The position numbers were made by a program, and so were the translations under genes. From assembly GCF_019891175.1 (NCBI RefSeq), contig NZ_CP072600.1:3162001-3226000 (forward strand): a DNA stretch of 64,000 bases. The letters are read 5' to 3'. This DNA comes from Leptothermofonsia sichuanensis E412 (GTDB lineage: Bacteria > Cyanobacteriota > Cyanobacteriia > Leptolyngbyales > Leptolyngbyaceae). Below the pieces are notes generated by a model. It saw only the letters and a program-made list of their open reading frames with translations. It was not told the DNA's origin and searched no databases. Below, one piece after another: positions 6,474 to 55,553 of the stretch (the stretch's first letter is position 1; each line of letters starts with the position of its first letter).

Positions 6474-6503
6474 CGCTCTTTCTGGTCTTAAAAGCAATCC
6501 CTC

Positions 6504-7061: not shown

Positions 7062-7166
7062 AGATGATGGATCGCTGAAGTCTTCAGGGCGATCGCGCAA
7101 ATTGTAGATCCTTGAAAATTTAATATTGCTTTAGCTAAGGGGAGGATTCTTAAACTTAAATTTTGC

Positions 7167-7445
7167 TTAATTTGCATTCGCTGATAACACCCGGATAATG
7201 GCAATATGTGCGGGACTATAGGTGGAAAGAACTACCACAAAAGCAGTTGTGATGATAACCCTGGTCGCCATCTTCACCATGCCGTCCATATCATTCTGGT
7301 AAATACCAAATCTATAATCTGGTCTGTAGTCTGGCTTTTCAAACTTAAGCTTATGGTTTAACTGGCTTAATTCCTCCCGCACTTGATTTTCCTGCCCACC
7401 CCATAAAAGTTCTGAGTCCACCCTGCTAACCGAGCATAACCCCAA
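7167..7445 (-). CDS. Possible small membrane protein, doubtful
   Basis: An open frame opposite to gltD in the 400-base spacer between the Uma2 gene and gltD. The first part, [13 protein letters not shown], has no features; the C-terminal half contains a hydrophobic segment ([14 protein letters not shown]). I recognise no family. It starts 14 bases upstream of gltD and would overlap its promoter region. It may be a fragment of a lost gene or chance; nothing else was seen in this spacer. Confidence 0.22.
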
Positions 7446-7459
7446 AACCGAGACACACT

Positions 7460-8944
7460 ATGGGAAAACCGACTGGCTTTATTGAGTACCTGCGTGAAGT
7501 CGCATCCGAAACCGCACCCCTCGATCGCATCCGCAACTGGGATGAGTTCCACCTGCCCATGCCAGAAGAGAAACTCCGGATCCAGGGTGCACGCTGTATG
7601 GACTGTGGCACACCCTTCTGTCACACAGGCACCCTGATCAGTGGTATGGCAAGTGGTTGCCCCATCAACAATCTGATCCCGGAATGGAACGACCTGGTCT
7701 ATCGCGGTTTGTGGAAAGAAGCCCTTGATCGCCTGCACAAAACCAACAACTTCCCAGAATTTACCGGGCGAGTCTGTCCTGCTCCCTGTGAAGGTTCCTG
7801 TGTGTTGGGTATCCACAACCCACCTGTGACGATCAAAAACATTGAGTATTCCATTGCCGAAAAAGGCTGGCAGGAAGGCTGGATCACCCCCAATCCGCCA
7901 GTAAAACGGACTGGAAAGAAAATCGCGATCGTGGGTTCCGGTCCCGCTGGACTAGCTGCTGCTGCTCAACTGAACACCGCTGGACACTGGGTAACCGTGT
8001 ACGAACGCGCCGATCGCCCCGGTGGGCTGTTGATGTATGGCATTCCCAATATGAAGCTGGATAAGGAAAAAGTCGTGTTACGGCGGCTGAATGTGCTCGA
8101 AGCAGAGGGAGTGACCTTCGTCTGCAACACGGAAATTGGGAAGGATTTGCCTGTTGAAACGCTGCTGCACAACTTTGATGCCGTTGTGTTGTGTATTGGA
8201 GCCACCCGACCGCGTGATCTCCCAATCGAAGGACGGGATTTGAAGGGCATTCACTTTGCGATGGATTTCCTGACTGCCAACACCCAGGCAATTCTGGACA
8301 AACAGCCTAACGAAAACTTTATCTCGGCAGCAGGCAAGGATGTGGTTATCATTGGCGGTGGGGATACGGGCACCGACTGTGTGGGAACATCCCTGCGCCA
8401 CGGCTGTAACAGCGTGACCCAGCTAGAAATCATGCCCATGCCACCTAAGGAACGTGCCCCAGAGAATCCCTGGCCCGAATATCCCAAAGTCTACAAAATG
8501 GACTACGGACAGGAAGAAGCTGCCGCCAAATTTGGTGAGGATCCCCGTGTTTACACCACGACGGCAACCAGGTTTGAAGGTGATGAAGCCGGCAACGTCA
8601 AAGCCATTCATACCGTCCAGGTCCAGTGGGAGCGAAATGATAAAGGTCAGTTCATCCCCACCCATGTCCCCGGCACCGAACAGGTGATTCCGGCTCAACT
8701 GGTGCTGCTGGCAATGGGTTTCCTGGGTCCCGAACAAATGTTGATCGATGCTCTGGGACTTGATCGCGATCCCCGCAGTAATATCAAAGCCGACTATGGC
8801 AGGTACACCACCCGCATCCCTGGTGTCTTCGCCGCTGGTGATTGCCGCCGGGGTCAAAGCCTGGTTGTCTGGGCATTCAACGAAGGACGGGAAGCCGCCC
8901 GCGAATGCGATCGCTACCTGATGGGCAGCACGGATCTCCCCTGA
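7460..8944 (+). CDS. gltD: Glutamate synthase small subunit
   Basis: A 494-residue flavoprotein that passes electrons from NAD(P)H through FAD and 4Fe-4S clusters to GltB. The N-terminus carries two cysteine groups ([10 protein letters not shown] and CPAPCEGSC) for the 4Fe-4S clusters, then a FAD Rossmann motif ([13 protein letters not shown] near residue 155) and a second nucleotide motif ([12 protein letters not shown] near 295). The C-terminal [18 protein letters not shown] closes the FAD site. Start at ATG 7460 fits the family N-terminus [13 protein letters not shown]. It is the natural partner of gltB, but an accessory insert of about 3.3 kb lies between them, so it probably needs its own promoter. 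Confidence 0.95.
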
Positions 8945-12802: not shown

Positions 12803-12913
12803 GTTTCAGTCCCGATGACGGGATTATTTGGGCTGCGACCAATAAATCAAGGATCCCAACACGGTCGCCCAAACAATTTTCCGTCCCAATGACGGGATTA
12901 TTTGGGCTGCGAC
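12803..12913 (+). CRISPR. Two-repeat, one-spacer CRISPR relic
   Basis: Two 37-base repeats at 12803-12839 and 12877-12913 flank a 37-base spacer (12840-12876). The repeats share their last 25 bases exactly (through GGGATTATTTGGGCTGCGAC) and differ at positions 1, 6 and 12. Repeat 1 starts GTTTCAGTCCC and contains the short stem TCCCG/CGGGA, the layout of common 37-base cyanobacterial CRISPR repeats. No cas gene is adjacent; the nearest is the lone cas6 at 25010. With only two repeats it is a remnant or a minimal array. Confidence 0.7.
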
Positions 12914-23810: not shown

Positions 23811-24245
23811 ATGACATATCGCAATCCCGTTCCTGCTGTTGACATCATCATTGAATTAATTGACCGTCCCCACCGTCCCATTGTTTTGATCGAACGGCTC
23901 AATCCTCCCCATGGGTGGGCAATTCCCGGTGGGTTCGTGGATTATGGGGAATCGATAGAAACCGCAGCCCGGCGAGAAGCCCAGGAGGAAACAGGTTTAG
24001 TCGTTGAGCTGATTGAACAGTTTCATGTCTATTCCAATCCAAATCGCGATCCGCGCCAGCACACAGTTGGCATCGTGTTTCTGGCAACTGCCCAGGGCAA
24101 ACCAGCGGCGGGGGATGATGCCAAACACCTGGATGTCTTCAATCCCTGGCAGATTCCTGACAATTTGTGTTTCGACCACGATAAAATTTTGCAGGACTAT
24201 CTCCGCTATCGGTTCTACGGACACCGACCAGGTCTGGAGCCTTAG
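23811..24245 (+). CDS. Nudix hydrolase
   Basis: 144 residues with a complete Nudix box ([20 protein letters not shown] followed by ETGLV), preceded by HGWAIPG. It hydrolyses a nucleoside diphosphate linked to another group; the substrate cannot be told. The sequence [17 protein letters not shown] is of the ADP-ribose/MutT-like type common in cyanobacteria. Start ATG 23811. It is followed by ridA after a repeat-filled spacer. Confidence 0.9.
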
Positions 24246-24251
24246 GCTGTT

Positions 24252-24345
24252 AGTTCCTCACTCCTCACTTCTCACTCCTCACTCCTCACCTCTCATCCCT
24301 CACCCCTCACTTCTCACTCCTCACTCCTCACTCCTCACTCCTCAC
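24252..24345. repeat. Short tandem repeats CTCACTCCTCA
   Basis: Imperfect tandem repeats of CTCACTCCTCA and CTCACTTCTCA fill the spacer between the Nudix gene and ridA. The same motif occurs before priA/queA (about 44250-44310) and at 55520-55550. It is of the short tandem repeat class common in filamentous cyanobacteria. Confidence 0.75.
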
Positions 24346-24351
24346 CTGCTT

Positions 24352-24747
24352 ATGACGCGCAAAATTATTCGCACCGATTCTGCTCCTGCTCCCGTAGGTC
24401 CCTACAATCAGGCGATCGCGGCAAGTGGTCAGTTCATCTTTGTGGCAGGACAGATTCCCCTGAATCCAGTAACCGGTCAAATTGTGGGGGATGGGGACGT
24501 GGCAACGCAGACGGAACAGGCAATCTCCAATTTGAAGGCAATTCTGGAAGCCGGGGGTGCCACCCTGTCGGATGTGGTCAAGACCAGCGTATTTCTGGCA
24601 AATATGAACGACTTCGCCGCCATGAATGCGGTTTATGCCCGGTATTTTGACGAGGAAACTGCCCCTGCCCGTGCCTGTGTCGAGGTTTCCCGTCTACCCA
24701 AGGATGTTCTGGTAGAAATTGAGTGCATTGCGGTGATTGCTGGTTAA
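24352..24747 (+). CDS. ridA: RidA family reactive imine deaminase
   Basis: 131 residues from ATG 24352 ([20 protein letters not shown]), chosen because the family starts here; the frame is open far upstream through repeats. The core is complete: [17 protein letters not shown], and near the end [20 protein letters not shown] with the catalytic Arg. RidA hydrolyses reactive 2-aminoacrylate made by PLP enzymes. No specific operon partner. Confidence 0.93.
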
Positions 24748-25009: not shown

Positions 25010-26131
25010 ATGCCCTTGTCTACTCGCAAGCGTAGCGCCCCTACTACCCCAAAACTGACCTGGAACCAGGATACCGAACTGGTTGGGCTGCAATTAAGCC
25101 TGCAACCACACCAGGATTTCGTCGTTCCACCTCATTATTCAACAGAACTTCACTCCTGGTTTCTGGATCAGGTCCGCCGACAGGACTTTGCCCTCTCTAC
25201 CTACCTGCACGACGGGCAATCCGAAAAACCCTTCACAATCTCCCAACTCCACGGCCCCCTGCAATCCCAGGGGCGATCGCTGCAATTAACAACCGATCAT
25301 TCCTATCAATGGATCATCACGGCCCTCTCCCACCCTTTAGCCCAGTGGATGAACCAATGGCTCCAGGCTCCCCCCGATGAGATCCATCTACGCAGTGGTT
25401 CCTTCAAAATCACCAATTGGAGCCTTGCCCATCCCCCCACAACCTACGCCCAACTGCTTCAAACCCCCATTCCCGAACCACCCACCCTTACCCTGAGCTT
25501 TTTAACTCCAACCAGCTTTCGTCGCAAAGGCAATCATCTGCCCCTGCCCCTGCCTGTGAATGTCTTCCATAGTTACCTGCGTCGCTGGAATGATTTTTCA
25601 GGCGAAGCGGTTGATCAGGATGACTTTCTAGACTGGGTTGATGAATTTGTGATCATTCTGCGGCATCAGATCCAATCGGCCAAAGTCATGGCGGGCAAAA
25701 GCGGCTCTGTCACAGGCTTCACAGGTTCCGTCCAGTTTGGGCTTGCCGGTAAAGCCAGGGATGATACTGAGTATGTTGAACTGTGGTTTGTCTTAGGACT
25801 ACTTGCCCCTTACTGTGGCACCGGACACAAAACGACCTTTGGTCTGGGGCAAACCACCTCAGGCTGGCTCAATTCCACTGAAACCAGCAGCCCCCCTTCG
25901 ATTCAGGATTTACTGGCTGAACGAATTTCTGAACTGACCGGGTTGTTTACAGCCCAACGCAAACGCCAGGGAGGGAATCGCGCTACCAGTATTGCCGAAA
26001 CCTGGGCCACCATCCTGGCTCGACGAGAACTGGGAGAGTCCTTGCAGGCGATCGCGGCGGATCTGGAAATGTCCTATGAAACCGTGAAAACCTATGCCAA
26101 ACTTGCTCGTCGAGCATTGCAGCAGTCATAG
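25010..26131 (+). CDS. cas6: Cas6-type CRISPR RNA endonuclease with C-terminal helix-turn-helix
   Basis: 373 residues. The C-terminal ferredoxin-like RAMP part shows TGFTGSVQFGLAGKA, then VLGLLAPYCGTGHKTTFGLG with the Gly-rich loop of Cas6, and a candidate catalytic His. The N-terminal half has FRRKGNHLPLP. Residues 305-373 add a segment ending LGESLQAIAADLEMSYETVK, a helix-turn-helix as seen in a cyanobacterial Cas6 subtype. It would cut pre-crRNA at the repeat hairpin. No other cas gene is visible nearby and the only CRISPR-like repeats in the window are the relic at 12803, so it stands alone. Start ATG 25010. Confidence 0.85.
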   Translation: MPLSTRKRSAPTTPKLTWNQDTELVGLQLSLQPHQDFVVPPHYSTELHSWFLDQVRRQDFALSTYLHDGQSEKPFTISQLHGPLQSQGRSLQLTTDHSYQWIITALSHPLAQWMNQWLQAPPDEIHLRSGSFKITNWSLAHPPTTYAQLLQTPIPEPPTLTLSFLTPTSFRRKGNHLPLPLPVNVFHSYLRRWNDFSGEAVDQDDFLDWVDEFVIILRHQIQSAKVMAGKSGSVTGFTGSVQFGLAGKARDDTEYVELWFVLGLLAPYCGTGHKTTFGLGQTTSGWLNSTETSSPPSIQDLLAERISELTGLFTAQRKRQGGNRATSIAETWATILARRELGESLQAIAADLEMSYETVKTYAKLARRALQQS

Positions 26132-27663: not shown

Positions 27664-29100
27664 TTACTCTGGCGTGACCCGCATGACGATGAGCGTCATA
27701 TCATCGGCGTTGCGATCGCTGTTGCCCGTAAACGTTTGCACGCGATCGAACAGATACTCCAAAATTTCCTGGGGCGTATGGCAGTGCTGACAGGCCCACC
27801 GAAACGCCTGCGTCAAGTTTTCCTCATCAAACCGATCCCCATTCTGATTGGCGGCATCCGTAAACCCATCGGTGTAATAGATCAGCGTATCCCCCGGCTG
27901 AAGATGGATCTGGGCATCCTGGTAATGGGTGTCTGCATCCAGCCCAATTAACATTCCCAGCGTATCCAGACGCTTGATTGATTGGGTCGCAGCCTGCCAC
28001 AGGAGCGGCGGATTGTGCGCCGCATTGCTGTAAGACAGGATGCGCGTCTGGGGATCGTATTCCGAATAAAACAGGGTGACAAACCGGTTAGAGTTTTCCA
28101 GATCGGCATACATGACCTGGTTCAGGTGCTGCAAAATCCGCGCTGGGGAGTGCCCGTTCAACACCTCTGCCCGCAGCATTCCCCGCGTCATGGTCATAAT
28201 TAACCCGGCGGGTACCCCCTTTCCCATCACATCCCCAATCGCCAGGCTCCAGCGCCCGGACTCGCTGCTTCCATCCTTGCGAGTGCGCATCTTGTCATAA
28301 CTGGCGGGGATAAAGTCGTAGTAATCCCCGCCCACCCGATTGGCCGTCTTACAGCGAGCCGCCAGTTCTACTCCCTGGATTTTGGGGCACTGGCGGGGCA
28401 ATAACCGCAGTTGAATCTCTGCACCAATCTCCAATTCACGATCAAGGCGTTCCTTCTTCCGGAGTTCAACCGTGAGTTCGTCATTTTCAATTGCAACGGC
28501 AGTCTGATCTGCCACCAGCCGCACCAGCTTCTGCCGGGTTTCTGTCCAGGTGTATTGTGGGTCACGACTGAAGACATAAAGCCGCCCCCGCTCATTGTTT
28601 TTCACCAGAATCGCGGTGCCAAACAATTGAATGTCGTGCCCCAGGTTATGGCTGACCTGGTGATCCAGAGCGGCGATCGCCCCTGGCGGCAACGTCAGCG
28701 CTTCCCCCGGTGTGGCTGGAGGTAAAGAAGCCATCACCTGCCGGGCAGCCATTTCCATTGCCCGCCGGATGTCCTGGCACCAGTTACTATCCTGGCAGTG
28801 CAGGCGCTCTAACCGCACCTGACCATTGGGCTTAAACAGCAATAGGGCACCGCCATCTGAGTCAGTCACCCGGCTTGCCATCAGCGGGATCAACTCCAGA
28901 AATTGATTCAGGTTATTAAAACTACGGAGGGCAAATCCCAGGGAACTGAGTAAATCCTGAATTTTGTGCTGCTCCCGATTCAGCCGTGCTACCAGTTCCT
29001 TCAAGGCAAACACCGGCGTCATATCAGGAGAAGCACTACCGCCCGTCGGAGTGCGCTCTGTGGGTTGGGATGGCTGTCGAGGAAGGGGCACAGCAGTCAT
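27664..29100 (-). CDS. GAF-domain PP2C (SpoIIE/RsbU-type) phosphatase
   Basis: 478 residues. Residues about 55-215 form a GAF domain (FLELIPLMASRVTDSDGGAL), then a short coiled coil (KKERLDRELEIGAEIQLRLL) leads to a SpoIIE-type PP2C domain from 240 to 475: NRVGGDYYDF with metal-binding Asp, GDVMGKGVPAGLIM, YTDGFTDAAN and DDMTLIVMRV. Such enzymes dephosphorylate anti-sigma antagonist proteins in partner-switching regulation. The GAF domain presumably senses a small ligand. No anti-sigma factor or antagonist gene lies next to it. Confidence 0.9.
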   Translation of the reverse strand: MTAVPLPRQPSQPTERTPTGGSASPDMTPVFALKELVARLNREQHKIQDLLSSLGFALRSFNNLNQFLELIPLMASRVTDSDGGALLLFKPNGQVRLERLHCQDSNWCQDIRRAMEMAARQVMASLPPATPGEALTLPPGAIAALDHQVSHNLGHDIQLFGTAILVKNNERGRLYVFSRDPQYTWTETRQKLVRLVADQTAVAIENDELTVELRKKERLDRELEIGAEIQLRLLPRQCPKIQGVELAARCKTANRVGGDYYDFIPASYDKMRTRKDGSSESGRWSLAIGDVMGKGVPAGLIMTMTRGMLRAEVLNGHSPARILQHLNQVMYADLENSNRFVTLFYSEYDPQTRILSYSNAAHNPPLLWQAATQSIKRLDTLGMLIGLDADTHYQDAQIHLQPGDTLIYYTDGFTDAANQNGDRFDEENLTQAFRWACQHCHTPQEILEYLFDRVQTFTGNSDRNADDMTLIVMRVTPE

Positions 29101-29685: not shown

Positions 29686-32600
29686 ATGGCAGATGAGTTT
29701 CAGCATGGATTTATTTCCTATGGGCGGATCGATAGCAAAACCTTTGCGACCAACCTGTATCAACACCTGAGCGACCTGGGATTCCAGATCTGGATTGACC
29801 ATCAAGACATTCCGCTGGCAGTTGACTTTCAAGATCAGATTGAGAACGGCATCGAGCGGTCAGACAACTTTATATTCATCATTTCGCCCCATTCGGTGAA
29901 TTCAATCTATTGCTTGAGAGAAATCGAACATGCGCTGAAGTACCATAAGCGCATCATTCCAATCCTGCACGTTGAGCAAATCAGCCAGGACACCTGGCAG
30001 CAGCGCCACCCCCAGGGAAATGCCTCTGATTGGGATGCCTATCAGGCCCAGGGGCTACATTCCTGCTTTCCAAACATGCATCCGGCGATCGCCCGCATTA
30101 ACTGGATCTACCTGCGGCAAGGGGTCGATGATTTTGAGCAGTCATTCACCGGATTGGTGGAAACCCTGGAACGCCACAAAGCCTACGTGCGCCAGCATAC
30201 CCTTTTCCTGAACCGGGCTTTGGAATGGGAGCGCCACCGTAAAGAAACCCGCTATCTGCTGATTGGAGAAGACCGGCAACAGGCGGAAGCATGGCTCAAG
30301 ACTCGCTTTCACCATGAACAGCCCCCCTGCATCCCCACCGACCTGCACTGCGAGTTCATCACGGAGAGCACCAAAAATGCCCACAACTTGATGACCCAGG
30401 TGTTTCTGGCTCACGCTGAGCAGGACAGCACCACTGCCGACCAGGTGCGCCGCAGTCTCATGCGGGATGGCCTGACGGTCTGGACGAGTCAGACAGACAT
30501 CCAAACCGGAACAGCGTTTCAGGAGGCAATTCAACGGGGCATTGAGGAAGCCGACAATGTGGTCTATCTCCTGTCCCCCGCGGCGCTCCAATCCCAATAC
30601 TGTCAGTTTGAAATTGACTACGCGCTGGCACTGAACAAACGCATCATTCCTGTCCTGGTAAAAGACATTGACCCGATTCAGGTGCCAGAGAGGCTGCGAG
30701 AACTCCAATATATTGATTTGACTGACAATCTGGCAGAGTCTGACTATTTGCATGATGAGAGCCAGTTGCTGCGTATCCTGCGGCAGGATGCTCCCTATTA
30801 CGAAGCGCATAAGATGTGGCTGACCAGAGCATTGAGATGGCAACGGCAGCAACAAAACCCCACGATTCTCCTGAGAGGCTATAACCTGCGCCATGCCGAA
30901 ACCTGGCTCAAGGTGTCCAGACAGCGCCCCCAGCACCCACCCACGGCTCTGATAGAAGCATTTATTGTTGAAAGCCTGCGCCACCCCCCCGGAGGAGCGC
31001 TGGATGTTTTTATCTCCTATTCACGGGCTGACTCAGATTTTGCGCGGCAACTGAATGATGCCTTGCAGTTCCAGGGCAAAAGGACCTGGTTTGACCAGGA
31101 AAGTATTGCCTCTGGTGCGGACTTTCAACAGGAGATTTTTCGCGGCATTGAAGCCTCGGATCACTTCCTGTTTATCATTTCGCCCAGTTCCATTCACTCG
31201 CCTTACTGTGCCGGGGAAGTGGAATATGCCCGCAAGTTGAACAAGCGGATGGTCACTGTTTTACATCGCCCTGTCGATCCAGCCGATCTGCATCCGCTGC
31301 TGGCAGCGGTGCAGTGGATTGACTTTAGCCAGCCCGAAGCAGATTTTTCCACCAATTTCAGTTCCTTAATCCGATCGCTGGATACGGATCGAACCCATCT
31401 CAATGCCCATACCCGCTTACTGATGCGGGCAATTGAATGGGATACTGCTGGTCGCAAAGAGAGTTTGCTGCTGCGGGGAGATGACCTGGAAGGGGCTGAA
31501 ACCTGGCTGGCTCAGAGTGCGTCGAAGGAACCCAAACCAACCGACCTGCACGCCAGTTATATCACCAGCAGTCGAGCGGTAGAAGCGGCAAATCAACGGG
31601 CAACCCAGATTTTGCAGAGGGCGGCGGCTAAGGGAAAGCAGCGGGTGTTGATAGGCACGACTGTGATGGCGATCGGACTGGTAGTGGCAGGTATGGCTGG
31701 TTTTTTTGCCTATCAGGCGAGTGAGCAGGCAAAGGCTGCCGGACACCAGGAAAAGATGGCGAATCAACGGGCAGGGGAGGCGGAAAAACAGGCTCAGATG
31801 GCTCACCGGCAGACCGGGCAGGCAAACCGGCAGTTAGCGCAGGCAGTGTCAGCCCTCCGGCAAGCCAGACAGCAACAAAAAATGGCCGAGCAACAGGTCA
31901 GCCTTGCCGGGCAGCGGCTGCAACTGGCGACTATGAAGACGGCGCAGGCAGAGCAGCAACTTCAGCAGGCACAGCAACAGGTGCAGGTTGCCCAAATCAG
32001 CCTTCAGCAGACGCAGGCGGCAAAAGACAAAGCTCTTGTTGCCCAGAGAGAAGCTCAACAGGGAACCCGGCTGGAGCGGGCAGGGGCGAGTGCTTTGCAG
32101 CAGTTTGAAGTTCAACAACTGGATGGGTTGTTCACCGCAGTAGAGACGGCTGAAGAATTACAGACTACGGTTAAAGCCCGTCCGCTGGCTGACTATCCAG
32201 CGTTTAACCCCATCTTTGCCTTGCAAACGATTCTGGACAATATCCGTGAACGCAATCGGATCTCGGCCCATCAGGGGCAGGTGCTGAGTGTGAGTTTTTT
32301 ACCGGAGGGTCAGCGTCTGGTGACTACCGGGAATGACCAGTTGGTTCGGGTCTGGACACTTGCTGGACACAAACAGGCTGAATTTAGCCTCGGTCAACTG
32401 GAGGTCTGGAGTGTGAGCGTCAGTCCAAATGGTCGGCGAGTTGCCGCCATCGCCAGGAATGGCAACCTCCACCTCTGGACAATCCGTGAGCCTGGCTCCA
32501 GGCTGCTTCCAACAACGCCTCCAGTCAAAGTTGGCGACGGCAGCTTTGCCCAGGTTCGGTTCAGCCCCGATGGCAACCAGGTGGCTACGCTGGGCAGGGA

Positions 32601-33849
32601 TGGCATCTTGCATTGGTGGAACCTGGACGGCACCCATCTGAGAGAGTTGAAAACGGGCGGCACCAATTTTAGCTTCAGCCCGGATGGCAAACAGGTGGCG
32701 ATCGCCAGCCAGGATGGCATCCTGCGCCTCTGGAATCTGGCAACACGAACACCTGAGCGAGAGTTTGAAACCCAACACCAGCCAGTTTTGAGTATTCAGT
32801 TTAATCCCGCTGGAACCCAGATTATGACTGGCGGCAGAGACGGTATGGTCCGCCTCTGGAACCTTGATGGGCAACTCGTAGATGAGTTCAAAACCCGGCA
32901 GGCATTTATTATCAGCCTGGGTTTCAGCCCCGACGGCAACCAACTGGCAACGGCAGACAGTCAGGGTATGGTGCGTCTGTGGACACTCAGAAAACGCCCA
33001 TTCCCTGAATTTGCAACGCAGCAGGCAAGGGTCCTGAGTGTTGGCTTCAGCCCCAGCCAACAATTGCTGACAGCCACAGGCGGTGATCGGATCCAGGTCT
33101 GGAGCCTGACGGGGCAACTGCAACGGGATCTGCGGGTGTCCTCCCATGTGATGACCGTAAGTGCCAGCCCGGATGGGAAAACAATGGCGATCGCCACGGA
33201 TAATGGCCGGGTGCAATTACTGGATCTGTCCGGTAATGCCCTGAGCCAGCCTTTTCAGGCGCACCAGGGAAATATTTTCAGCATTCGCTTTAGCCCGGAT
33301 GGCAGGCAACTGGTGACCGCTGGACTCGATGGCACAGTGCGTCTGTGGTCCCTTGCCGGCCAATCCCTTGCCCAGATTGGGCAACCCCAGTCGGGGGCAT
33401 TCTACAGCGCCAGCTTCAGTCCAGATGGTCAGTCTCTGCTAACGGCAGGTGAAGATGGCATGATCCGCTGGTGGACGATGGCAGGGAAACTCCTGAATGA
33501 ATTTAATGCCCACCAGGGTAATAAGATCTGGAGCGTGGGTATCAGCCCCGATGGGCAGCGGTTTGTTACCGCAAGTCAGGATGGGACTGTCCGCCTCTGG
33601 AGCCTGACTAAACATCTGCTGGCTGAATTCAGGTTTCCTCAACAAACCTTAAGTGTGGAGTTTAGCCCAGATGGAAGACAAATTGCAGCGGGTAGTGAGG
33701 ATGGGCGGGTGCGGTTCATTGCCGTTGAAACCTTAACCGATCTGCTCAGCCGGGGCTGCCACTGGCTGAGCCATTATCTGAATAATCCTGGTCGAGCGGG
33801 CAATCGCCCGGTCTGTCCGGCAATGCCCATCAGGGCTGCGGGAACGTAA
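29686..33849 (+). CDS. Triple-TIR, membrane-anchored WD40 protein
   Basis: 1387 residues. TIR domains lie at about 6-160, 237-365 and 438-565; each begins with FISY/FLAH-type strands and keeps the C-x-x-E NADase glutamate (E79, E309, E511). Each is followed by a copy of a linker module with LLRG/LLIG and AETWL/AEAWL blocks and a T-x-L-x-x-x-F/YI ending, so a unit of about 200 residues is triplicated. A membrane helix (about 654-676, VLIGTTVMAIGLVVAGM), a Gln-rich coiled coil (685-800) and WD40 repeats (about 860-1365, many SPDG and VRLW motifs) follow. It is probably a membrane-anchored sensor whose TIR domains consume NAD or serve as adaptors. Start ATG 29686 with GAGGATGAC before it. Substrate and trigger unknown. 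Confidence 0.88.
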   Translation: MADEFQHGFISYGRIDSKTFATNLYQHLSDLGFQIWIDHQDIPLAVDFQDQIENGIERSDNFIFIISPHSVNSIYCLREIEHALKYHKRIIPILHVEQISQDTWQQRHPQGNASDWDAYQAQGLHSCFPNMHPAIARINWIYLRQGVDDFEQSFTGLVETLERHKAYVRQHTLFLNRALEWERHRKETRYLLIGEDRQQAEAWLKTRFHHEQPPCIPTDLHCEFITESTKNAHNLMTQVFLAHAEQDSTTADQVRRSLMRDGLTVWTSQTDIQTGTAFQEAIQRGIEEADNVVYLLSPAALQSQYCQFEIDYALALNKRIIPVLVKDIDPIQVPERLRELQYIDLTDNLAESDYLHDESQLLRILRQDAPYYEAHKMWLTRALRWQRQQQNPTILLRGYNLRHAETWLKVSRQRPQHPPTALIEAFIVESLRHPPGGALDVFISYSRADSDFARQLNDALQFQGKRTWFDQESIASGADFQQEIFRGIEASDHFLFIISPSSIHSPYCAGEVEYARKLNKRMVTVLHRPVDPADLHPLLAAVQWIDFSQPEADFSTNFSSLIRSLDTDRTHLNAHTRLLMRAIEWDTAGRKESLLLRGDDLEGAETWLAQSASKEPKPTDLHASYITSSRAVEAANQRATQILQRAAAKGKQRVLIGTTVMAIGLVVAGMAGFFAYQASEQAKAAGHQEKMANQRAGEAEKQAQMAHRQTGQANRQLAQAVSALRQARQQQKMAEQQVSLAGQRLQLATMKTAQAEQQLQQAQQQVQVAQISLQQTQAAKDKALVAQREAQQGTRLERAGASALQQFEVQQLDGLFTAVETAEELQTTVKARPLADYPAFNPIFALQTILDNIRERNRISAHQGQVLSVSFLPEGQRLVTTGNDQLVRVWTLAGHKQAEFSLGQLEVWSVSVSPNGRRVAAIARNGNLHLWTIREPGSRLLPTTPPVKVGDGSFAQVRFSPDGNQVATLGRDGILHWWNLDGTHLRELKTGGTNFSFSPDGKQVAIASQDGILRLWNLATRTPEREFETQHQPVLSIQFNPAGTQIMTGGRDGMVRLWNLDGQLVDEFKTRQAFIISLGFSPDGNQLATADSQGMVRLWTLRKRPFPEFATQQARVLSVGFSPSQQLLTATGGDRIQVWSLTGQLQRDLRVSSHVMTVSASPDGKTMAIATDNGRVQLLDLSGNALSQPFQAHQGNIFSIRFSPDGRQLVTAGLDGTVRLWSLAGQSLAQIGQPQSGAFYSASFSPDGQSLLTAGEDGMIRWWTMAGKLLNEFNAHQGNKIWSVGISPDGQRFVTASQDGTVRLWSLTKHLLAEFRFPQQTLSVEFSPDGRQIAAGSEDGRVRFIAVETLTDLLSRGCHWLSHYLNNPGRAGNRPVCPAMPIRAAGT

Positions 33850-33947
33850 AGGCGGCTGGTGCAACGGTCGCCAAATCAGGGCATCTGTAGTAGGCTGGTT
33901 TTCAAATAGTTTTTCCTGGCCGTGGAAAATCAGATTGGCTTCAACCT

Positions 33948-35666
33948 ATGGTCTTCACCTTGCCCCCGCCCCTGCCATTACCAGCTGGTTCCATTCCAGC
34001 GCAGGTCATGCCTGCCGCAACGCATTCGTTGGAAGATCCATCCCTGGCTCAATTTCTGCTCCCAAACCGGGTTGCCGGCCCCCTCAAGTCTGATGGACAT
34101 GACCTGGAGGCTGCCTTCACTTCAGACGATGGGACTGCGGCAGAAACAGCAGAGGGGGTAGAATCTGCCCTCGATCCAATCCCCTCAGTGTCACAACTGG
34201 AGGATGCTCGACCGGGGGACTGGGCATTTCAGGCATTACAGTCCCTGGTTGAGCGCTATGGCTGTATCGTGGGTTATCCAGACCGGACCTTTCGCGGCGA
34301 TCGCATCCTCAGTCGATATGAATTTGCCGCCGGTCTGAACGCCTGTCTTAATCGGCTCAATAAACTGATTGCCGCCGGGACTGCTGATCGGATCAGCCGT
34401 GAAGACAGGCTGGCGGTTCAGAAACTGCAAGAGGAATTTACGGCGGAACTGGCAAGTTTGCGTGGGCGAACCGATGGGCTGGCGGTCAGGACGGCCACCC
34501 TGGAAGCCAGCCAGTTCTCTACAACTGCCATTCTGCGGGGGCAGGTGGTGTTTGGGCTGGTAACCGCTGCCGGGGGCAATCCACCCGGTCTGGGAGAGAC
34601 GAATACCGTTCTGACGAATCTGACCCAACTGCAACTGGTTTCCTCCTTTACGGGCCGCCGCGATCTACTGCGAATTGGTCTGGCGACCAGCAACTTTGGT
34701 GGCGAGGGCTATGCCGGGTTTCCAGCACTCAACACCTACATGGCACTGTTGTCCTACCAGGGAGACTTTGAGAATCGGCTGGCAGTCAATGCCATTGACT
34801 ATCGGTTTGCGATCGGCGATCGGCTGGTGCTGACTCTGCAACCCGTGGGTTTCAGTCTCAGCAGTGTGCTCAGCCCCAACTCTCCCTACAGTGATGCCGG
34901 GTTGGGAGCCATCTCATGCTTTGCTGCTTACAATCCGCTCTTCCGGATTGGAAATCTAGATGCCGGCGTTGGGTTGGACTGGTTGATGGGTGATCGGTGG
35001 CGGCTTCAGGTTGGCTATGGTGCTCGCAGCGGCAACGACCTGACTGAGCGGAATGGCCTGTTCAACTCAGGGCATCAGGCGATCGGTGTTCAGGTGTTGC
35101 ATAAGCCCAATGCCAATACCATTCTGGGATTTTCCTACATCAACGCCTTTTCAGAAGATGGACGGCTAGATACTTTCACCGGCAGCAGCAACGCCGATCT
35201 TTCTGGCGACTTCAATCAACCGGCCAAAATTCATGCCCTCGCCCTATCGATGCAGTGGCGTCTGTCGCCCAAAATTACGCTGGGAGCCTGGGGAGGGGCA
35301 GTTTTGACGGATTCAACCTTTGGTCAGGTGCTTCGCGCCATTACGGATCGTGACCTTGACCTGGCCGATCTGGGGGCCGTGACCCTATCCAGCACGTACC
35401 TGGTCTCTCTGGGGATCCACGAACCGTTTGGGCGTAAGGGCGATCAATTAGTGTTCATGGTTGGTCAACCTCTAAAACTGAATGCCGGTGTTTTAATTGA
35501 ACGTATTGACCGGGGTACGTCCCTGCACTTTGAGGCATTCTATCGGTTTAGACTCAACGATCACCTTGCCATCACCCCTGGGTTCTTTTACGTCACGGAT
35601 CCCGGGCACATCTCAGAAAATAACAATATTTTTGTCGGTACGATCCGGTCCACATTCAGCTTTTAG
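33948..35666 (+). CDS. SLH-domain outer-membrane porin (iron uptake porin type)
   Basis: 572 residues. An SLH domain (DWAFQALQSLVERYGCIVGY, RTFRGDRILSRYEFAAGLN) is followed by a short coiled coil and a beta-barrel of the OprB/cyanobacterial porin type, ending with FVGTIRSTFSF, an aromatic C-terminal residue as required for barrel insertion. Homologues are annotated as iron uptake porins. The N-terminus (MVFTLPPPLPLPAGS) is not a normal signal peptide, so the true start may lie elsewhere or the leader is degraded. It begins 98 bases after the TIR-WD40 gene and may share its transcript. Confidence 0.8.
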   Translation: MVFTLPPPLPLPAGSIPAQVMPAATHSLEDPSLAQFLLPNRVAGPLKSDGHDLEAAFTSDDGTAAETAEGVESALDPIPSVSQLEDARPGDWAFQALQSLVERYGCIVGYPDRTFRGDRILSRYEFAAGLNACLNRLNKLIAAGTADRISREDRLAVQKLQEEFTAELASLRGRTDGLAVRTATLEASQFSTTAILRGQVVFGLVTAAGGNPPGLGETNTVLTNLTQLQLVSSFTGRRDLLRIGLATSNFGGEGYAGFPALNTYMALLSYQGDFENRLAVNAIDYRFAIGDRLVLTLQPVGFSLSSVLSPNSPYSDAGLGAISCFAAYNPLFRIGNLDAGVGLDWLMGDRWRLQVGYGARSGNDLTERNGLFNSGHQAIGVQVLHKPNANTILGFSYINAFSEDGRLDTFTGSSNADLSGDFNQPAKIHALALSMQWRLSPKITLGAWGGAVLTDSTFGQVLRAITDRDLDLADLGAVTLSSTYLVSLGIHEPFGRKGDQLVFMVGQPLKLNAGVLIERIDRGTSLHFEAFYRFRLNDHLAITPGFFYVTDPGHISENNNIFVGTIRSTFSF

Positions 35667-35747
35667 AGAGGGTAGACCGCAAACGGAGAGCAGGTTTTGA
35701 TGGGGACGTGACTCGACTTCGTGAACCATTCACAGCAGGGGGGACAA

Positions 35748-36965
35748 ATGTTGACTAAATTCAAACAAGTCCTGGTTTTGGGTCTGGTTCAGGGCAGGCA
35801 GCCAGATGTCAGGGAGCCAGACGGCAGGGAGCTTGGGGTTGCCTGCCACCAGAACCCCATTTGCCAGGACGCTGACGGCCTTACGAGAGCAGCGAAACAT
35901 GGGTTTAAGCCGTGGTGGGGTGGGTTACTGGTGTTGATCCTGGTTAAAGGGTGCATACTTGCCCCGTTGACCGCTACGGCACAACAAATCCGCCAGGCCA
36001 CAATCCGTGAAATTTTGGATGGTAAGCAGGTTTTCATCCAGGATCGGCAGGCCCAGGAAAACGATGTCAGCACAGAGGGACAGCTCGTGCGCACGATCGC
36101 CGCCCGCGCCGGATTACTGTTTGACGTGGATGCCGGCATTCGACTGGGGCAAAACTCGTCGCTGACCGTTGGCAGTGAATGCATCCAACTGATTCAGGGA
36201 CAGGTTATGGTTGCGGGTACGGTGGGACGCAATGGCTGTGTCGGGACCCTGGAAGTTCGCTCTCTGAGTACGGTCTATATTATGCAACTGGATGCTCAGA
36301 ACCAGGCACTGGTGGTTGTTCTGGAAGGTAGTGTGGAGGTTTTCAGTACGCAGAATCCGGATGTCAAGGTAACCGTTGGGGCGGGGCAGGGAGTCACCAC
36401 AGCGGCGGATGGCACTCTGGCAACAACAGCGACCGGAGATGTGGCGGTCAATCAACTGAGTCAATCCCAGCTTGAAACTATTGCCGCTCCTCTGGTGGAG
36501 GGGTTTCAGGTGCCCCTGCCCAACCTGGAACGGGTTGCGTTTTTGCAACAGCGTAACCGGGGATTTAGACCCACCTTCCTGCAAGATGCGCTGCTGGGTA
36601 GAGAGGGAAGCTTTGAATATTTTGATGGACAGAGGGGACAGTCCAGCGCTTCCATTCGGATTCTTCAATCTACAACTGGGACCTTTATCCGGGATGGGGA
36701 AACCAGCGGAGTCTTTATCCCGGATGATAGCCCGGCGGCAGTGGTTCCCATTTCCGTAGATTTTGACGCGAATACGATCAGCATTGGCGGCACGGAGGGT
36801 ATTGCCAATTCAGTGGGCTTAAGTGGGAATGGTGCTTCAGGTACTGTTGTTCTGAAAAATGGTCAGGTGATTCGGGTGGAAGTGTTTGATGTCGGAAAGA
36901 AGGAACCTGGCATCGGAGTGCCATTTCGGGGCAAACTGATTAACGGCACAATTCGCGATCGCTGA
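35748..36965 (+). CDS. FecR-domain protein
   Basis: 405 residues from ATG 35748, preferred over GTG 35721 because a GGGGGG ribosome-binding stretch precedes it. A hydrophobic segment near residues 60-77 (LLVLILVKGCILAPLTATA) exports or anchors it. The FecR domain follows (VRTIAARAGLLFDVDAGIRL, NSSLTVGSECIQLIQGQVMV, VVVLEGSVEVFS). FecR domains sense or transduce signals across membranes, classically for iron. The C-terminal half has no family I know. It lies just after the porin on the same strand, so porin and FecR protein may work together at the envelope. Confidence 0.8.
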   Translation: MLTKFKQVLVLGLVQGRQPDVREPDGRELGVACHQNPICQDADGLTRAAKHGFKPWWGGLLVLILVKGCILAPLTATAQQIRQATIREILDGKQVFIQDRQAQENDVSTEGQLVRTIAARAGLLFDVDAGIRLGQNSSLTVGSECIQLIQGQVMVAGTVGRNGCVGTLEVRSLSTVYIMQLDAQNQALVVVLEGSVEVFSTQNPDVKVTVGAGQGVTTAADGTLATTATGDVAVNQLSQSQLETIAAPLVEGFQVPLPNLERVAFLQQRNRGFRPTFLQDALLGREGSFEYFDGQRGQSSASIRILQSTTGTFIRDGETSGVFIPDDSPAAVVPISVDFDANTISIGGTEGIANSVGLSGNGASGTVVLKNGQVIRVEVFDVGKKEPGIGVPFRGKLINGTIRDR

Positions 36966-37010
36966 TGGTAGCCGGGGAGAACATCAACCCTTCCCCCTGT
37001 ACTCCCAGGA

Positions 37011-39281
37011 TCAGGGTAAACAGCGACGGACGTGATAGGTAGGGAAGGTGCCATAGTGTTTTGCCCAGGGCATCTGTCCAGCGTAGTCACAGGTAAAGCT
37101 TTTCAGCCCTTCAGAAGCGGCAATGGCAGCAAAAGCCTGACTGGCATAGACCTTGCCGGGAGGGGTGATCGGTTCAATTCGGGCGGCGTGGTTGACATGG
37201 GTACCAATGTAGTTCACCTGTCCGGTAATGGGATCGACGTTGCGATCAACGGGTCCGGCATGGAGGGCAATCCGGAGGTTCAGTTCAGCCGGTAGTCCGT
37301 GGCTGGACCAGTCCACACTTTGCACCAGGTCACAGAGATCAAGGGCAAACTTCCCTGCCTGCCCCACGGTCTGAAAGACAAAGAACAGCGCATCCCCCCA
37401 GGTATTCTTCAGCAAGACCTGGTAAGCTGGCTGGCTGGCCAGATCGGCGATCGCCTTCAGGAAGTGCTGCGCAAACAGTAGATACTGGTTCTCTGTCAAT
37501 TGGCTGTACTGCACAACATCCGCAAATAACAGCGCCCGAATCTGGCGCTCTACCCCTATGGCCTGAGCTGGGACTGGTGCTGGTTGAGGTGGCAGGGGCA
37601 TCTGGCGGCTGGCTTCAGGATTGACTGTGGGAAGTGCCAGTGAGGACTGACGCAGTAAGGAGGTCAGATCAATCACCTCAATATGCTCCGTCCACTGCTT
37701 CCAGAGCAGGACCGTACTGGCCGTTCCCGCCTGTCCATCTCCGGGTTTCCCATCCCAGACAGTCAGGGGCACAAGATCGGTACCCAGTTGATCCGCCCGC
37801 ATCTTTGCCAGTCCATGCAGCAGCCGATTGGAGTATTCGTACACCACATCGCCTGCCTCAAACTTCTGGCTGGAGGCAACAATGACCTCTGTCGCCTGCT
37901 GCAAGAGTTGATCAAACCGCGCCTGCCAGTTGCCCTCTGGGGCAAAGTTAACCGATTCCTGGAGAAACTGTTCCCGGTTATAAGGCAACACAATATGCAG
38001 TTCGCCCTTCAGTTCCCGAATTGCCTCCAGGAATAGAATGTCGGCACCACAGGCAGCGGAAGCATAGCCCAGCCGGGCATCCAATTGGCGCAGGCGATCG
38101 CAAATTGCCCCATAGACGGCTGGTTCTAAGGCTGGCGGAAACCGGGGTTGGGGGCGGGCAGGGTGATCAATCATATGCCCACAAAAGACGACCACGCGGG
38201 GAATTTGAAACCATTGTTGTACCTGTCTGGCATCAATATCCAGATGATTGACCAGTAGCATGGCGTTGCGGCGGCTGGAACTGAGATCGCCAAATCGCCC
38301 CTGCCCCGCTGCCCCGGCCCGCCTGTAGAAGTCTTCCGCCTCTGACCAGGCTTGCAGAATCAGGGCAGCTTCTCCCAGGGTGGCCAGCAACCAGTAATTA
38401 TCGCCCTGGGAACCCGTCTGCAAGTCCTGAAGGCAGCGCTGCCGCACCTCCTGGGCGATCGCCCGTGCCTGCTCTACCTGCCCCCGCACCATTGCCAGCG
38501 TTGCCGCATTGATTCCCGTCCAGACACTACCACTCCGTTGATAAGCCTGCTGGTAGCGTTCTGCCGCCAGGTGCAACTGGCGATCGCGGATCTCCGGGTC
38601 TGTCGCCTGTAGCCACAGGTCTTTGTGGGTGCGCGCCAGCAGTCCCAGGGTTTCTTCGTCCTGTTGACCAGACTGCACCAGCTTGAGCAGCAGGGAATTG
38701 GCCGCCACAGTTGCGCCGCTGCGTGCCAGAGCCAGAGCTAACTGCTGTTGCAGCCGTAAATCGTTAGACCAGTACTTTAACCCTTCCGCCAGAACATCGT
38801 AGGCCATCAACGGTTCCCCCAACTGCAAGATGGATTTGCCCAATGCCTGGTAAATTTCGGGGGTCTGGAGTTGCAGGCGGAAGGTTTTCTGGCGCAGTTG
38901 TAGCAGTGTGGCCAGGGTCAGATCAGAGGAGGCACTCAGCGCTTGCAGAATGGAACCGTACTCAGGCTCATTTCCGGCAGGAACATTAACCTCGACATTT
39001 CCTGCATCTAACCGATAGCCCAGTGCCAGCAGTGTCTTCAGGGTTTCTTGAAGGATCAGGCAGCGGCTCTGTTTGCTGGCCTCTGGCAGTTCATCAAACG
39101 GCACCAGATCCGGATCGGTCCGTCCAGACTGATCATAGCGGATGCCCCAGCCCCAGCCCTGTTCCAGATGCTGTTGCGCCCAAAAATCGTGGATGCTTCT
39201 GGCAAGCAGTTCAGCCAGCTTCAGGTGCTCTGCTGTTAGAGTAATGGCGGTGGTGTTGATTGGCTCTGGCTTGTAGGTCAA
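37011..39281 (-). CDS. RyR / helical-repeat / SLOG-like / class III cyclase protein
   Basis: 756 residues. Residues 17-90 match the ryanodine-receptor RyR domain (LARSIHDFWAQQHLEQGWGW, DPDLVPFDELPE, ETLKTLLALGY). Residues 100-355 are TPR-like helices. Residues 360-545 resemble a SLOG-type nucleotide-binding fold (RVVVFCGHMID, AACGADILFLEAI, LHIVLPYNREQF). Residues 580-745 are a class III nucleotide cyclase with both metal Asp (D588 in LLFADVVQYS, D630 in NTWGDALFF) and the transition-state pair N697/R701 in VNHAARIE. The base-specifying positions appear to be N626 and N690 rather than Lys/Asp or Glu/Cys, so the product is unclear. Cytosolic. Convergent with the FecR gene, 45 bases apart. Confidence 0.8.
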   Translation of the reverse strand: MTYKPEPINTTAITLTAEHLKLAELLARSIHDFWAQQHLEQGWGWGIRYDQSGRTDPDLVPFDELPEASKQSRCLILQETLKTLLALGYRLDAGNVEVNVPAGNEPEYGSILQALSASSDLTLATLLQLRQKTFRLQLQTPEIYQALGKSILQLGEPLMAYDVLAEGLKYWSNDLRLQQQLALALARSGATVAANSLLLKLVQSGQQDEETLGLLARTHKDLWLQATDPEIRDRQLHLAAERYQQAYQRSGSVWTGINAATLAMVRGQVEQARAIAQEVRQRCLQDLQTGSQGDNYWLLATLGEAALILQAWSEAEDFYRRAGAAGQGRFGDLSSSRRNAMLLVNHLDIDARQVQQWFQIPRVVVFCGHMIDHPARPQPRFPPALEPAVYGAICDRLRQLDARLGYASAACGADILFLEAIRELKGELHIVLPYNREQFLQESVNFAPEGNWQARFDQLLQQATEVIVASSQKFEAGDVVYEYSNRLLHGLAKMRADQLGTDLVPLTVWDGKPGDGQAGTASTVLLWKQWTEHIEVIDLTSLLRQSSLALPTVNPEASRQMPLPPQPAPVPAQAIGVERQIRALLFADVVQYSQLTENQYLLFAQHFLKAIADLASQPAYQVLLKNTWGDALFFVFQTVGQAGKFALDLCDLVQSVDWSSHGLPAELNLRIALHAGPVDRNVDPITGQVNYIGTHVNHAARIEPITPPGKVYASQAFAAIAASEGLKSFTCDYAGQMPWAKHYGTFPTYHVRRCLP

Positions 39282-54311: not shown

Positions 54312-55370
54312 ATGGCAATGAAACTACGATCGCTACTCACCTATGTCAGCATTTTTCTAATTGGACTGATCCTGACTGCAAGCTGCACAAATCCTGCTGT
54401 TTACATCAAAACCACCAGCGAAGAGGCGATCGCTACTGCCAGTACGGGCGCTGGAGAAACTCGATTAGGATTCAGTGCCTGGCCCGGCTGGTTTCCCTGG
54501 CAGGTTGCTAAAGAACAGAGAATTTTTGAAGCAAATAATGCATCCGTTTCCTTGAAATGGTTTGATGGCTACCTGGAATCTATCAGTACCCTGACTGCCC
54601 AGCAAATTGAAGCAAACAGCCAGACCCTGAATGACACCATCAGTTCTGTATCAGGAGGGGCAGATCAGGTGGTAGTCCTGGTGAATGACAACTCCACGGG
54701 TAATGACAAAATCATTGTTCGAGAAGGAATTAACAGTATTGCTGATTTGAAAGGCAAGAAAGTTGCCGCCGAAGAAGGAGCCGTCGATCATTTTCTGCTG
54801 CTGTTGGGCTTGAAAAAAGCAGGACTGAGTCAGAATGACCTGCAATTTGTGCCGCTGGAAACGGGCAAAGCTGCCTCTGCTTTTGTGGGTGGGCAGGTCG
54901 ATGCAGTCGCCGTATTTGCGCCCTTCACCACCCAGGCACTCAAACGCCCTGGAAGCAAAGAACTTTTCAGCTCCGCCGACTTTCCAGGTGCGATTCCAGA
55001 CCATCTTGTGGTCACCCGCAAACTGGTAGATGAAAACCCGCAACAGGTGCAGGCACTGGTCGATACCTGGTTTGCCACCCTTGACTACATGAAGAAAAAT
55101 CCAGACCAGGCAACGGAAATTATGGCGAAACGAGCTAACGTCAGCGTTGCCGAATACAACGACTATGCCAGAGGCACCACAATCTTTACCCTTGAAGACA
55201 ACCTGAAAGCCTTCCAACCAGGCAATGATATGAGTTCGTTGATGTACGCCGCCAGCCAAATGACCACCTTCTTAGAAGAAGTTGGGCTTGCCAAAGAGAA
55301 ACCCGATCTCAGCAAGTTGTTCGACGATCGCTTCATCAAGGCATATGCAGAGAGAGAGAAGAAGACTTAG
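54312..55370 (+). CDS. ABC transporter substrate-binding lipoprotein, copy 2
   Basis: 352 residues, a tandem paralogue of the previous gene: lipobox LILTASC|TNPA, GFSAWPGWFPWQVAKEQRIF, FDGYLESISTLTAQQ and GGADQVVVLVNDNSTGNDKI. Long stretches are identical and the mature N-termini differ most (YIKTTSEEAIATAST here). A duplication with later divergence may have given two ligand affinities. 246 bases of unremarkable spacer separate them. The stop codon TAG is already part of the TTAGTTG tandem repeat. Confidence 0.85.
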   Translation: MAMKLRSLLTYVSIFLIGLILTASCTNPAVYIKTTSEEAIATASTGAGETRLGFSAWPGWFPWQVAKEQRIFEANNASVSLKWFDGYLESISTLTAQQIEANSQTLNDTISSVSGGADQVVVLVNDNSTGNDKIIVREGINSIADLKGKKVAAEEGAVDHFLLLLGLKKAGLSQNDLQFVPLETGKAASAFVGGQVDAVAVFAPFTTQALKRPGSKELFSSADFPGAIPDHLVVTRKLVDENPQQVQALVDTWFATLDYMKKNPDQATEIMAKRANVSVAEYNDYARGTTIFTLEDNLKAFQPGNDMSSLMYAASQMTTFLEEVGLAKEKPDLSKLFDDRFIKAYAEREKKT

Positions 55371-55500
55371 TTGTTAGTTGTTAGTTGTTAGTTGTTGGTT
55401 GTTAGTTGTTAGTTGTTAGTTGTTAGTTGTTAGTTGTTAGTTGTTAGTTGTTAGTTGTTAGTTGTTAGTTGTTAGTTGTTAGTTGTTAGTTGTTAGTTGC
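55368..55500. repeat. Heptanucleotide tandem repeat TTAGTTG
   Basis: About 19 copies of TTAGTTG with two variants (TTGGTTG, CTGGTTA at the end) in a head-to-tail array of about 130 bases. It begins at the stop codon of the second binding-protein gene. It is of the short tandem repeat type known from filamentous cyanobacteria and is likely length-variable. Confidence 0.95.
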
Positions 55501-55553
55501 TGGTTATTTCTGCTCCCCTTCCTCCTCACTCCTCACTCCTCCCTCCTCTCCCC

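Follow-up and report, generated by a model that had tools for sequence, protein, structure and literature searches.

Two large genes that converge on one another in the genome of the cyanobacterium Leptothermofonsia sichuanensis E412 raise the question of whether a protein with three TIR domains and a protein that combines RyR, SLOG and nucleotide cyclase domains form a single signalling system. The genes lie in a stretch of 64,000 nucleotides (positions 3,162,001 to 3,226,000 of contig NZ_CP072600.1), hereafter the window, of a cyanobacterial genome (G000) that consists of a single contig of 6.43 Mb. A first reading of this stretch (the original prediction) had proposed that a nucleotide signal made by the TIR protein is sensed by the second protein and turned into a cyclic nucleotide, and that a porin and a FecR-like protein encoded between the two serve as envelope components. 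The domains, folds, linkage and residue conservation described below were computed directly. They show that the linkage of TIR and cyclase genes is firm and recurs in several phyla, and that the second protein carries an additional ASK1-like region, TPR-S.

Linkage of TIR and cyclase genes across phyla

A contig scan with a single sequence confirmed nothing, and an alignment query that used the peptide patterns NTWGDAL[YF] and AK[QGH]YGTFP then yielded 78 loci of a (RyR-)TPR-S-SLOG-cyclase family. According to the submitters' record titles, most of which refer to metagenome-assembled genomes, these loci belong to about nine phyla: Pseudomonadota, Cyanobacteriota, Acidobacteriota, Thermodesulfobacteriota, Myxococcota, Verrucomicrobiota, Chloroflexota, Planctomycetota and Actinomycetota. 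TPR-S and SLOG stretches are present in most members. Viral spread of the family was considered and rejected, as none of the 35 pattern matches in a viral contig scan was confirmed.

After one locus without a cyclase frame (L147) had been dropped, 77 of the 78 loci were scored for TIR genes. A TIR gene is found in the flanks of 36 of them, against 0.78 expected, an approximately 46-fold excess over a background of 161 TIR_2 domains in 232.5 Mb of 43 genomes (a list of 45 entries, namely G000 and the genomes of 44 of the 78 loci, came to 43 genomes searched, with L079 left out). The TIR gene is within 1 kb in 24 loci (0.10 expected) and within 200 bp in 22, in 14 of these on the same strand, and some of the TIR and cyclase genes sit in operon-like runs. 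Among the matches listed, Pfam confirms TIR_2 in the scanned neighbours. The sole TIR_2 match of the entire genome adjoins the cyclase gene in L083, L099, L101 and L119, and the single match in the L100 genome lies about 3.3 kb off in the same gene run. As a control, a further 20 TIR stretches, taken from 19 of these genomes, were inspected, and none had a cyclase-family relative within about 2 kb. A TIR gene is present in 21 of the 37 loci whose flanks each reach 7 kb or more. Distances between TIR domains correlate with those between the cyclase cores (38 rows, including the window and L033; Mantel rho 0.47, with none of 2000 permutations as high). The conserved neighbourhood and the correlated distances bear out the proposal that the TIR and RyR-SLOG-cyclase proteins belong together.

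A similar association is seen among the genomes of the window's own phylum. The triple-TIR family is present at or near full length in 12 of 386 genomes (a manual count of near-full-length matches), with any match in 24 of 386. Relatives of the SLOG region were found within the window's class in five genomes (G000, G060, G170, G215 and G237), all of which fall among these 12 (hypergeometric P 1e-8, calculated post hoc). Phylum-wide, the Pfam TPR-S domain was detected in 14 genomes at E values up to 2e-10, with an overlap of five with the triple-TIR genomes (P 2e-5, or 3e-5 if one more TPR-S genome with an E value below 1e-9 is added). The two genes share a contig in G000, G170 and G237, but not in G060 and G215. 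Convergent triple-TIR and RyR-cyclase genes, arranged as in the window and without a porin or FecR-like gene between them, are found in Okeania (L072, L097 and L123, the last with its cyclase gene split into two frames). In G170, a triple-TIR protein in which CHASE2 replaces WD40 is encoded about 3.6 kb from the cyclase gene, divergently and with one large open reading frame (ORF) between. In G237, a TPR-S-SLOG gene that has no cyclase domain comes 0.3 kb after a triple-TIR-WD40 gene and has the same orientation. The G237 run (L038:234-7533) is operon-like and also includes a small membrane-type protein that resembles DUF4231 by eye; the TIR partner is kept in this run and the output domain differs.

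Domains and conserved residues of the two proteins

For the second protein of the window, Pfam detects RyR at residues 3-92 (E 4e-25), TPR-S at 165-263 (E 3e-22) and Guanylate_cyc at 583-736 (E 3e-8). An AlphaFold2 model of the whole protein (39 sequences, mean pLDDT 89.1, pTM 0.82) matches nucleotide cyclases at residues 575-756 (Z 22.6) and, at residues 107-363, the central regulatory region of ASK1 (Z 22.1, rmsd 3.2, 246 residues). The latter region has both the sequence match of a TPR-S domain (PF20308, 79.6 bits against a cut-off of 27.6) and the ASK1-like fold. No Pfam call for SLOG was obtained, and because the sequence profile gave no match against the PDB, this domain was tested by its fold. 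A separate model of residues 354-552 (pLDDT 91.6) matches YpsA (Z 18.4), DprA (12.2), LOG (about 10) and TRPM2 (9.8) and, weakly, the SLOG domain of ThsA bound to 3'cADPR (Z 6.7, below the caution line of 8); as a whole, this set of matches to a modelled structure supports a SLOG identity. The RyR, SLOG and class III cyclase domains of the original prediction are thus upheld, by Pfam for the first and last and by AlphaFold2 fold matches for SLOG; its domain list overlooked the TPR-S region between RyR and SLOG. The same genome encodes a second protein, of 1101 aa at 2.30 Mb (L037:9888-13193(-)), with TPR-S followed by a SLOG relative. Its upstream stretch resembles nucleoside-deoxyribosyltransferases by eye, and Pfam at E 1e-4 finds TPR-S and TPR only.

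In a core alignment of 81 rows, in which the base positions were located by their distance from the GD turn and VN motif, Asp588 is kept in 80 rows (the other has a gap) and Arg701 in 79. The window protein keeps Asp588, Asp630, Asn697 and Arg701 and so displays the fold, the two metal aspartates and the arginine of class III nucleotide cyclases. Residues Asn626 to Asp630 lay within the search pattern and their invariance is partly built in.

The RyR domain is found in 25 of 77 loci, 13 of which have a TIR gene. It occurs once per genome in 18 of 38 genomes; in 17 of them the frame spans 642-810 codons, matching the cyclase protein in length. A separate RyR frame of 129 codons (G421; L132:11772-12158(-)) overlaps the end of a cyclase-family gene and keeps all four residues that, in the phage R12-domain glycosidase RyDEP, are described as binding 2'/3'cADPR (cyclic ADP-ribose variants), with H75 and D117 as the catalytic dyad (PMC13232231, preprint, excerpt). 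In an alignment of 26 RyR domains including that of the window, with phage RyDEP (L148) as the reference, H75 is kept in 26, W78 in 26, H100 in 24 and D117 in 23, and both residues of the dyad are kept in 23. According to the same excerpt, RyDEP homologues either cleave the signal or merely sequester it, and the four residues are widespread in R12 domains, so their presence is not proof of hydrolysis (PMC13232231). The window copy retains H75 and W78, has Asp at H100 and Arg at D117, and consequently lacks a RyDEP-type dyad. D117 is replaced by Lys in L077 and L103, L033 and L076 lack RyR, and these four form one branch with the window (SH-aLRT 99). With two RyDEP residues replaced and close relatives devoid of the domain, the window RyR is probably not the main sensor. 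The sensor role originally assigned to it is therefore doubtful for this copy, even though the residues are kept in most RyR domains of the family. The domain gives the impression of an accessory, decaying module in the window's clade, where decay and loss followed in an order that we can only infer, and the TPR-S/SLOG core is for this reason the likelier sensor.

The triple-TIR protein gives three TIR_2 matches (Pfam, E 1e-81) and WD40 repeats, and each of its TIR domains has the motif Glu, as had been noted before. The gene ends given for both large ORFs are exact and their orientation is indeed convergent. Among 24 rows of the triple-TIR family, with the window gene represented three times and the G237 gene twice, the motif Glu is present in 24 first, 21 second and 18 third TIR domains, and it is kept in all 38 TIR domains of partner proteins. 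Hydropathy analysis places a hydrophobic segment, residues 653-671, between the TIR domains and the WD40 region of the window protein. A transmembrane (TM) segment starting more than 60 residues past the TIR start is found in 31 of 36 partners; for comparison, 10 of 20 further TIR proteins, taken from 19 of these genomes, have one (Fisher P 0.005, with rows that are not independent). Without L130, whose segment lies inside the TIR domain, 30 partners have one and P is 0.013. The C-terminal parts identified in partners are WD40, TPR, CHASE2, NACHT with many TM segments, or SH3. CHASE2 is an extracytoplasmic sensor domain, which makes the partner look like a membrane-spanning receptor whose TIR domains would be cytosolic.

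Of the neighbours scanned, none but the L091 and L100 TIR proteins showed SIR2_2. Genes for SIR2_2-TIR, nSTAND1 and TPR-S-SLOG-cyclase proteins form one same-strand run in both an actinobacterium (L091:4737-11836) and a betaproteobacterium (L100:494-7135). In L078, the adjoining TIR protein (6246-7760(-)) has a weak match to DUF4062 (E 1e-4), a family recently named TIR-like NADases (PMC13174449, excerpt).

A candidate relay and its alternatives

On balance, we lean towards a Thoeris-like relay of two proteins, in which a nucleotide signal made by the TIR protein is read by TPR-S/SLOG and passed on to the cyclase-like output. The triple-TIR protein would be a membrane-anchored receptor, with its TIR domains probably in the cytosol, one TM helix, and the WD40 sensor on the opposite side or at the membrane. 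Engagement of the sensor would lead to clustering of the TIR domains, which would turn NAD+ into an ADP-ribose-type nucleotide. The second protein would bind this nucleotide via its TPR-S/SLOG core, and its class III cyclase-like domain would be switched on (or rearranged) to give an output, most simply a cyclic mononucleotide. RyR, found in about a third of the family, would be an accessory RyDEP-type module that binds or destroys cADPR-type signals. The mechanism is plausible; within it we infer NAD cleavage, the identity of the messenger, its binding by TPR-S/SLOG, and the activity and substrate of the cyclase. The conversion of a sensed TIR signal to a cyclic nucleotide, as originally proposed, would be its outcome, and a role in defence, perhaps against phages, may follow.

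We consider rather doubtful a more elaborate form of this scheme, in which a single protein reads a cADPR-type messenger made by a transmembrane TIR receptor through TPR-S/SLOG, converts it into a new cyclic mononucleotide (cNMP), possibly not cAMP or cGMP, and destroys the messenger through a RyDEP-like RyR in most RyR-bearing members. Phage RyDEP may in that case derive from such a protein, with the off-switch decayed in the window's clade.

Several observations weigh against the relay. No TIR gene is present in the flanks of 41 of the 77 loci, some of which end at contig ends; of the 37 loci that extend 7 kb or more to each side, 16 have none. On the core tree, which left out L131, L143, L145, L146, L034 and L036 and in which long branches make some placements unsure, presence and absence of a TIR gene alternate at least 21 times. 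The window genes themselves are convergent with two unrelated genes in between, and relatives outside the class in the same phylum (G007, G016 and G029) are without a triple-TIR gene. Given these changes and a Mantel rho of only 0.25 among distant pairs, partners have also been exchanged or lost, or are missing where a contig ends. As for the output, position 697, that of the transition-state Asn, is occupied by Ser in 47 of the 81 rows and by Asn in 21, the window having Asn. Asn626 stands at the position of the adenine-specifying Lys, and the second base position is Thr694. The known base-selecting pairs of cyclases are Lys/Asp and Glu/Cys, from which this pair departs. Judging by these residues, the domain could be an active cyclase of unusual base selectivity or else a non-catalytic switch. 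Nor was a conserved cNMP-binding partner found across the family loci, where proteins with a cyclic nucleotide-binding domain (CNB) are scattered, among the matches listed, near L126, L101, L082, L087, L110 and L132; the search query was the CNB proteins of one locus and may miss distant ones, and L132 was found by this search alone, without Pfam. Finally, as regards a possible anti-phage function, the cyclase protein is not represented among the PADLOC models.

Beside this, we note a CNB protein gene between the cyclase and TIR genes of L126. In two phyla, proteins of about 335 aa that resemble each other by eye and carry a cNMP-binding domain at the C-terminus are encoded next to TIR and cyclase genes (L126:12064-13065(+) and L101:5501-6511(-)). 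These are possible receptors of the output. In L087 (1642-8184), a cyclase-family gene precedes two genes on its own strand, one lipoxygenase-like and one for a double-CNB patatin phospholipase.

Of the alternatives, the one that survives best, itself unlikely in our judgement, holds that the cyclase domain is dead or is a nucleotide-binding dimer switch, and that the protein is an ASK1-like scaffold for TIR or other effectors, or a clearer of TIR signals. It would account for Asn at the adenine-Lys position, for Ser in place of Asn697 in most members, for the fold match between TPR-S and ASK1, for the cADPR-hydrolase residues in most RyR-bearing members, and for the cyclase-less TPR-S-SLOG protein that pairs with a triple TIR in G237. 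It would leave unexplained why Asp588 and Arg701 are kept almost throughout in spite of great divergence, as is Asp630, which was, however, pattern-selected.

Improbable, and less well placed than the scaffold, is a Pycsar-like reverse order in which the cyclase protein senses the trigger and makes a cyclic mononucleotide, the TIR protein being an NAD-depleting effector. Pycsar does join a class III cyclase to a TIR effector (PMC11224242, excerpt), and both metal aspartates and the arginine are kept in the cyclase domain. In such an arrangement the effector would be expected to bear a CNB, but none was found by Pfam, among the matches listed, on the window TIR protein or 19 partner TIR proteins. 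Moreover, the sensor-type parts (WD40, TPR, CHASE2 and NACHT) are borne by the TIR partners and the nucleotide-sensor-type domains lie on the cyclase side, and the PADLOC PycC model does not match the cyclase protein. Chance neighbourhood without a functional link, for which one could cite the convergent window genes with porin and FecR-like genes between them and the TIR-less majority of loci, is contradicted by the enrichment of TIR genes and by the four genomes whose only TIR_2 match adjoins the cyclase gene, and is to be regarded as extremely improbable.

The favoured relay resembles Thoeris, which pairs a TIR gene with a SLOG receptor (ThsB TIR and ThsA SIR2-SLOG; PMC11204291, excerpt), in the linkage of a TIR gene with the gene for a SLOG-bearing receptor, adjacent in many relatives and separated by two genes in the window, and in the weak similarity of the window SLOG model to BcThsA SLOG (Z 6.7). 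It differs in its output, which is class III cyclase-like rather than the SIR2 or TM-macro effector that defines ThsA (Pfam found neither on the cyclase proteins of the window and L085), in the addition of TPR-S and often RyR, and in the large, TM-bearing TIR partner. As in Pycsar, a class III cyclase fold and a TIR protein are encoded at a single locus (PMC11224242, excerpt), whereas the window cyclase protein has no PADLOC PycC match at E 0.1, no CNB was found on the scanned TIR partners among the matches listed, and the sensor-type domains are on the cyclase side. The PF02026 domain with H75, W78, H100 and D117 in most RyR-bearing members recalls RyDEP, but is fused to a bacterial receptor, and the window copy has H100 replaced by Asp and D117 by Arg. 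The TPR-S Pfam match, the fold of the ASK1 central region and the TIR gene in the neighbourhood are features of the TPR-S/ASK1 signalosome, from which the family differs by a cyclase instead of a kinase output and by the fused RyR and SLOG. TPR-S was reportedly predicted by Burroughs and Aravind in 2020 to be a sensor of NAD-derived signals that is tied to ASK1 and found in TIR neighbourhoods. An excerpt of PMC8195603 cites that work for ADP-ribose signals made by TIR domains and for a bacterial origin of ASK components. A search by title and abstract start, which excluded Burroughs and Aravind 2020 and a 2025 preprint on TIR systems, found no paper describing the RyR-TPR-S-SLOG-cyclase/TIR pair, and the pair may have been described previously.

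The recurrent gene pair joins TIR domains and NAD-derived messengers with class III cyclases in several phyla, and may represent a little-known relay that turns an NAD-derived alarm into a second signal. It also places RyR, reported in phages to cleave 2'/3'cADPR (PMC13232231, preprint, excerpt), within cellular TIR-linked receptors. A built-in RyDEP-like hydrolase, if real, would be a host-encoded off-switch for TIR signals; a terminator of such signals encoded by bacteria, and the output of such receptors, become testable, with the decayed RyR of the window copy offering a ready-made comparison for the copies of Okeania and Nostoc.

Other features of the window

The porin encoded between the pair matches the NCBIfam iron-uptake porin model (E 4e-131); its SLH domain falls just below the Pfam cut-off. 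The FecR label of the next gene rests on reading by eye, as Pfam at E 0.1 and NCBIfam at E 0.01 give no match. Relatives of the porin are found in one of the 78 family loci and relatives of the FecR-like protein in none, which rules out the two genes as conserved components; probably neither protein belongs to the system, and their proposed role as envelope components is not sustained.

Table 1. Coordinates of the two large genes, their domains and the intervening genes (window positions)
Feature	Position	Strand	Evidence
TIR-TIR-TIR-TM-coiled coil-WD40 protein, 1387 aa	29686..33849	+	ORF, Pfam, hydropathy; coiled coil by eye
TIR domain 1, motif Glu79	29710..29976	+	PF13676
TIR domain 2, motif Glu309	30400..30738	+	PF13676
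TIR domain 3, motif Glu511	31006..31365	+	PF13676
Predicted transmembrane segment, residues 653-671	31642..31698	+	hydropathy
WD40 propeller region, residues about 862-1344	32269..33717	+	Pfam
SLH/OprB iron-uptake porin, between the pair	33948..35666	+	NCBIfam
FecR-like protein by eye	35721..36965	+	no library match
RyR-TPR-S-SLOG-cyclase protein, 756 aa, TTG start	37011..39281	-	ORF, Pfam, AlphaFold2 model
RyR (R12-type) domain, residues 3-92	39006..39275	-	Pfam
TPR-S sensor, ASK1 central-region-like, residues 107-363	38193..38963	-	Pfam (165-263) and fold match 5ulm_B, Z 22.1
SLOG domain, residues 361-545	37647..38201	-	fold of model
Class III cyclase-like domain, residues 577-753	37023..37553	-	Pfam, fold, conserved residues

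Divergent from the triple-TIR gene, a SpoIIE/RssB-type phosphatase is encoded at 27664-29100(-), with NCBIfam matches below the cut-off. Elsewhere, the window contains a cas6 gene (25010-26131(+)) and a two-copy repeat of 36 nt, with the copies 38 nt apart (12804-12913), that resembles a CRISPR remnant. Heptamer-type tandem repeats, TTAGTTG and CTCACT-like, are present at 55339-55527 and 24242-24353.

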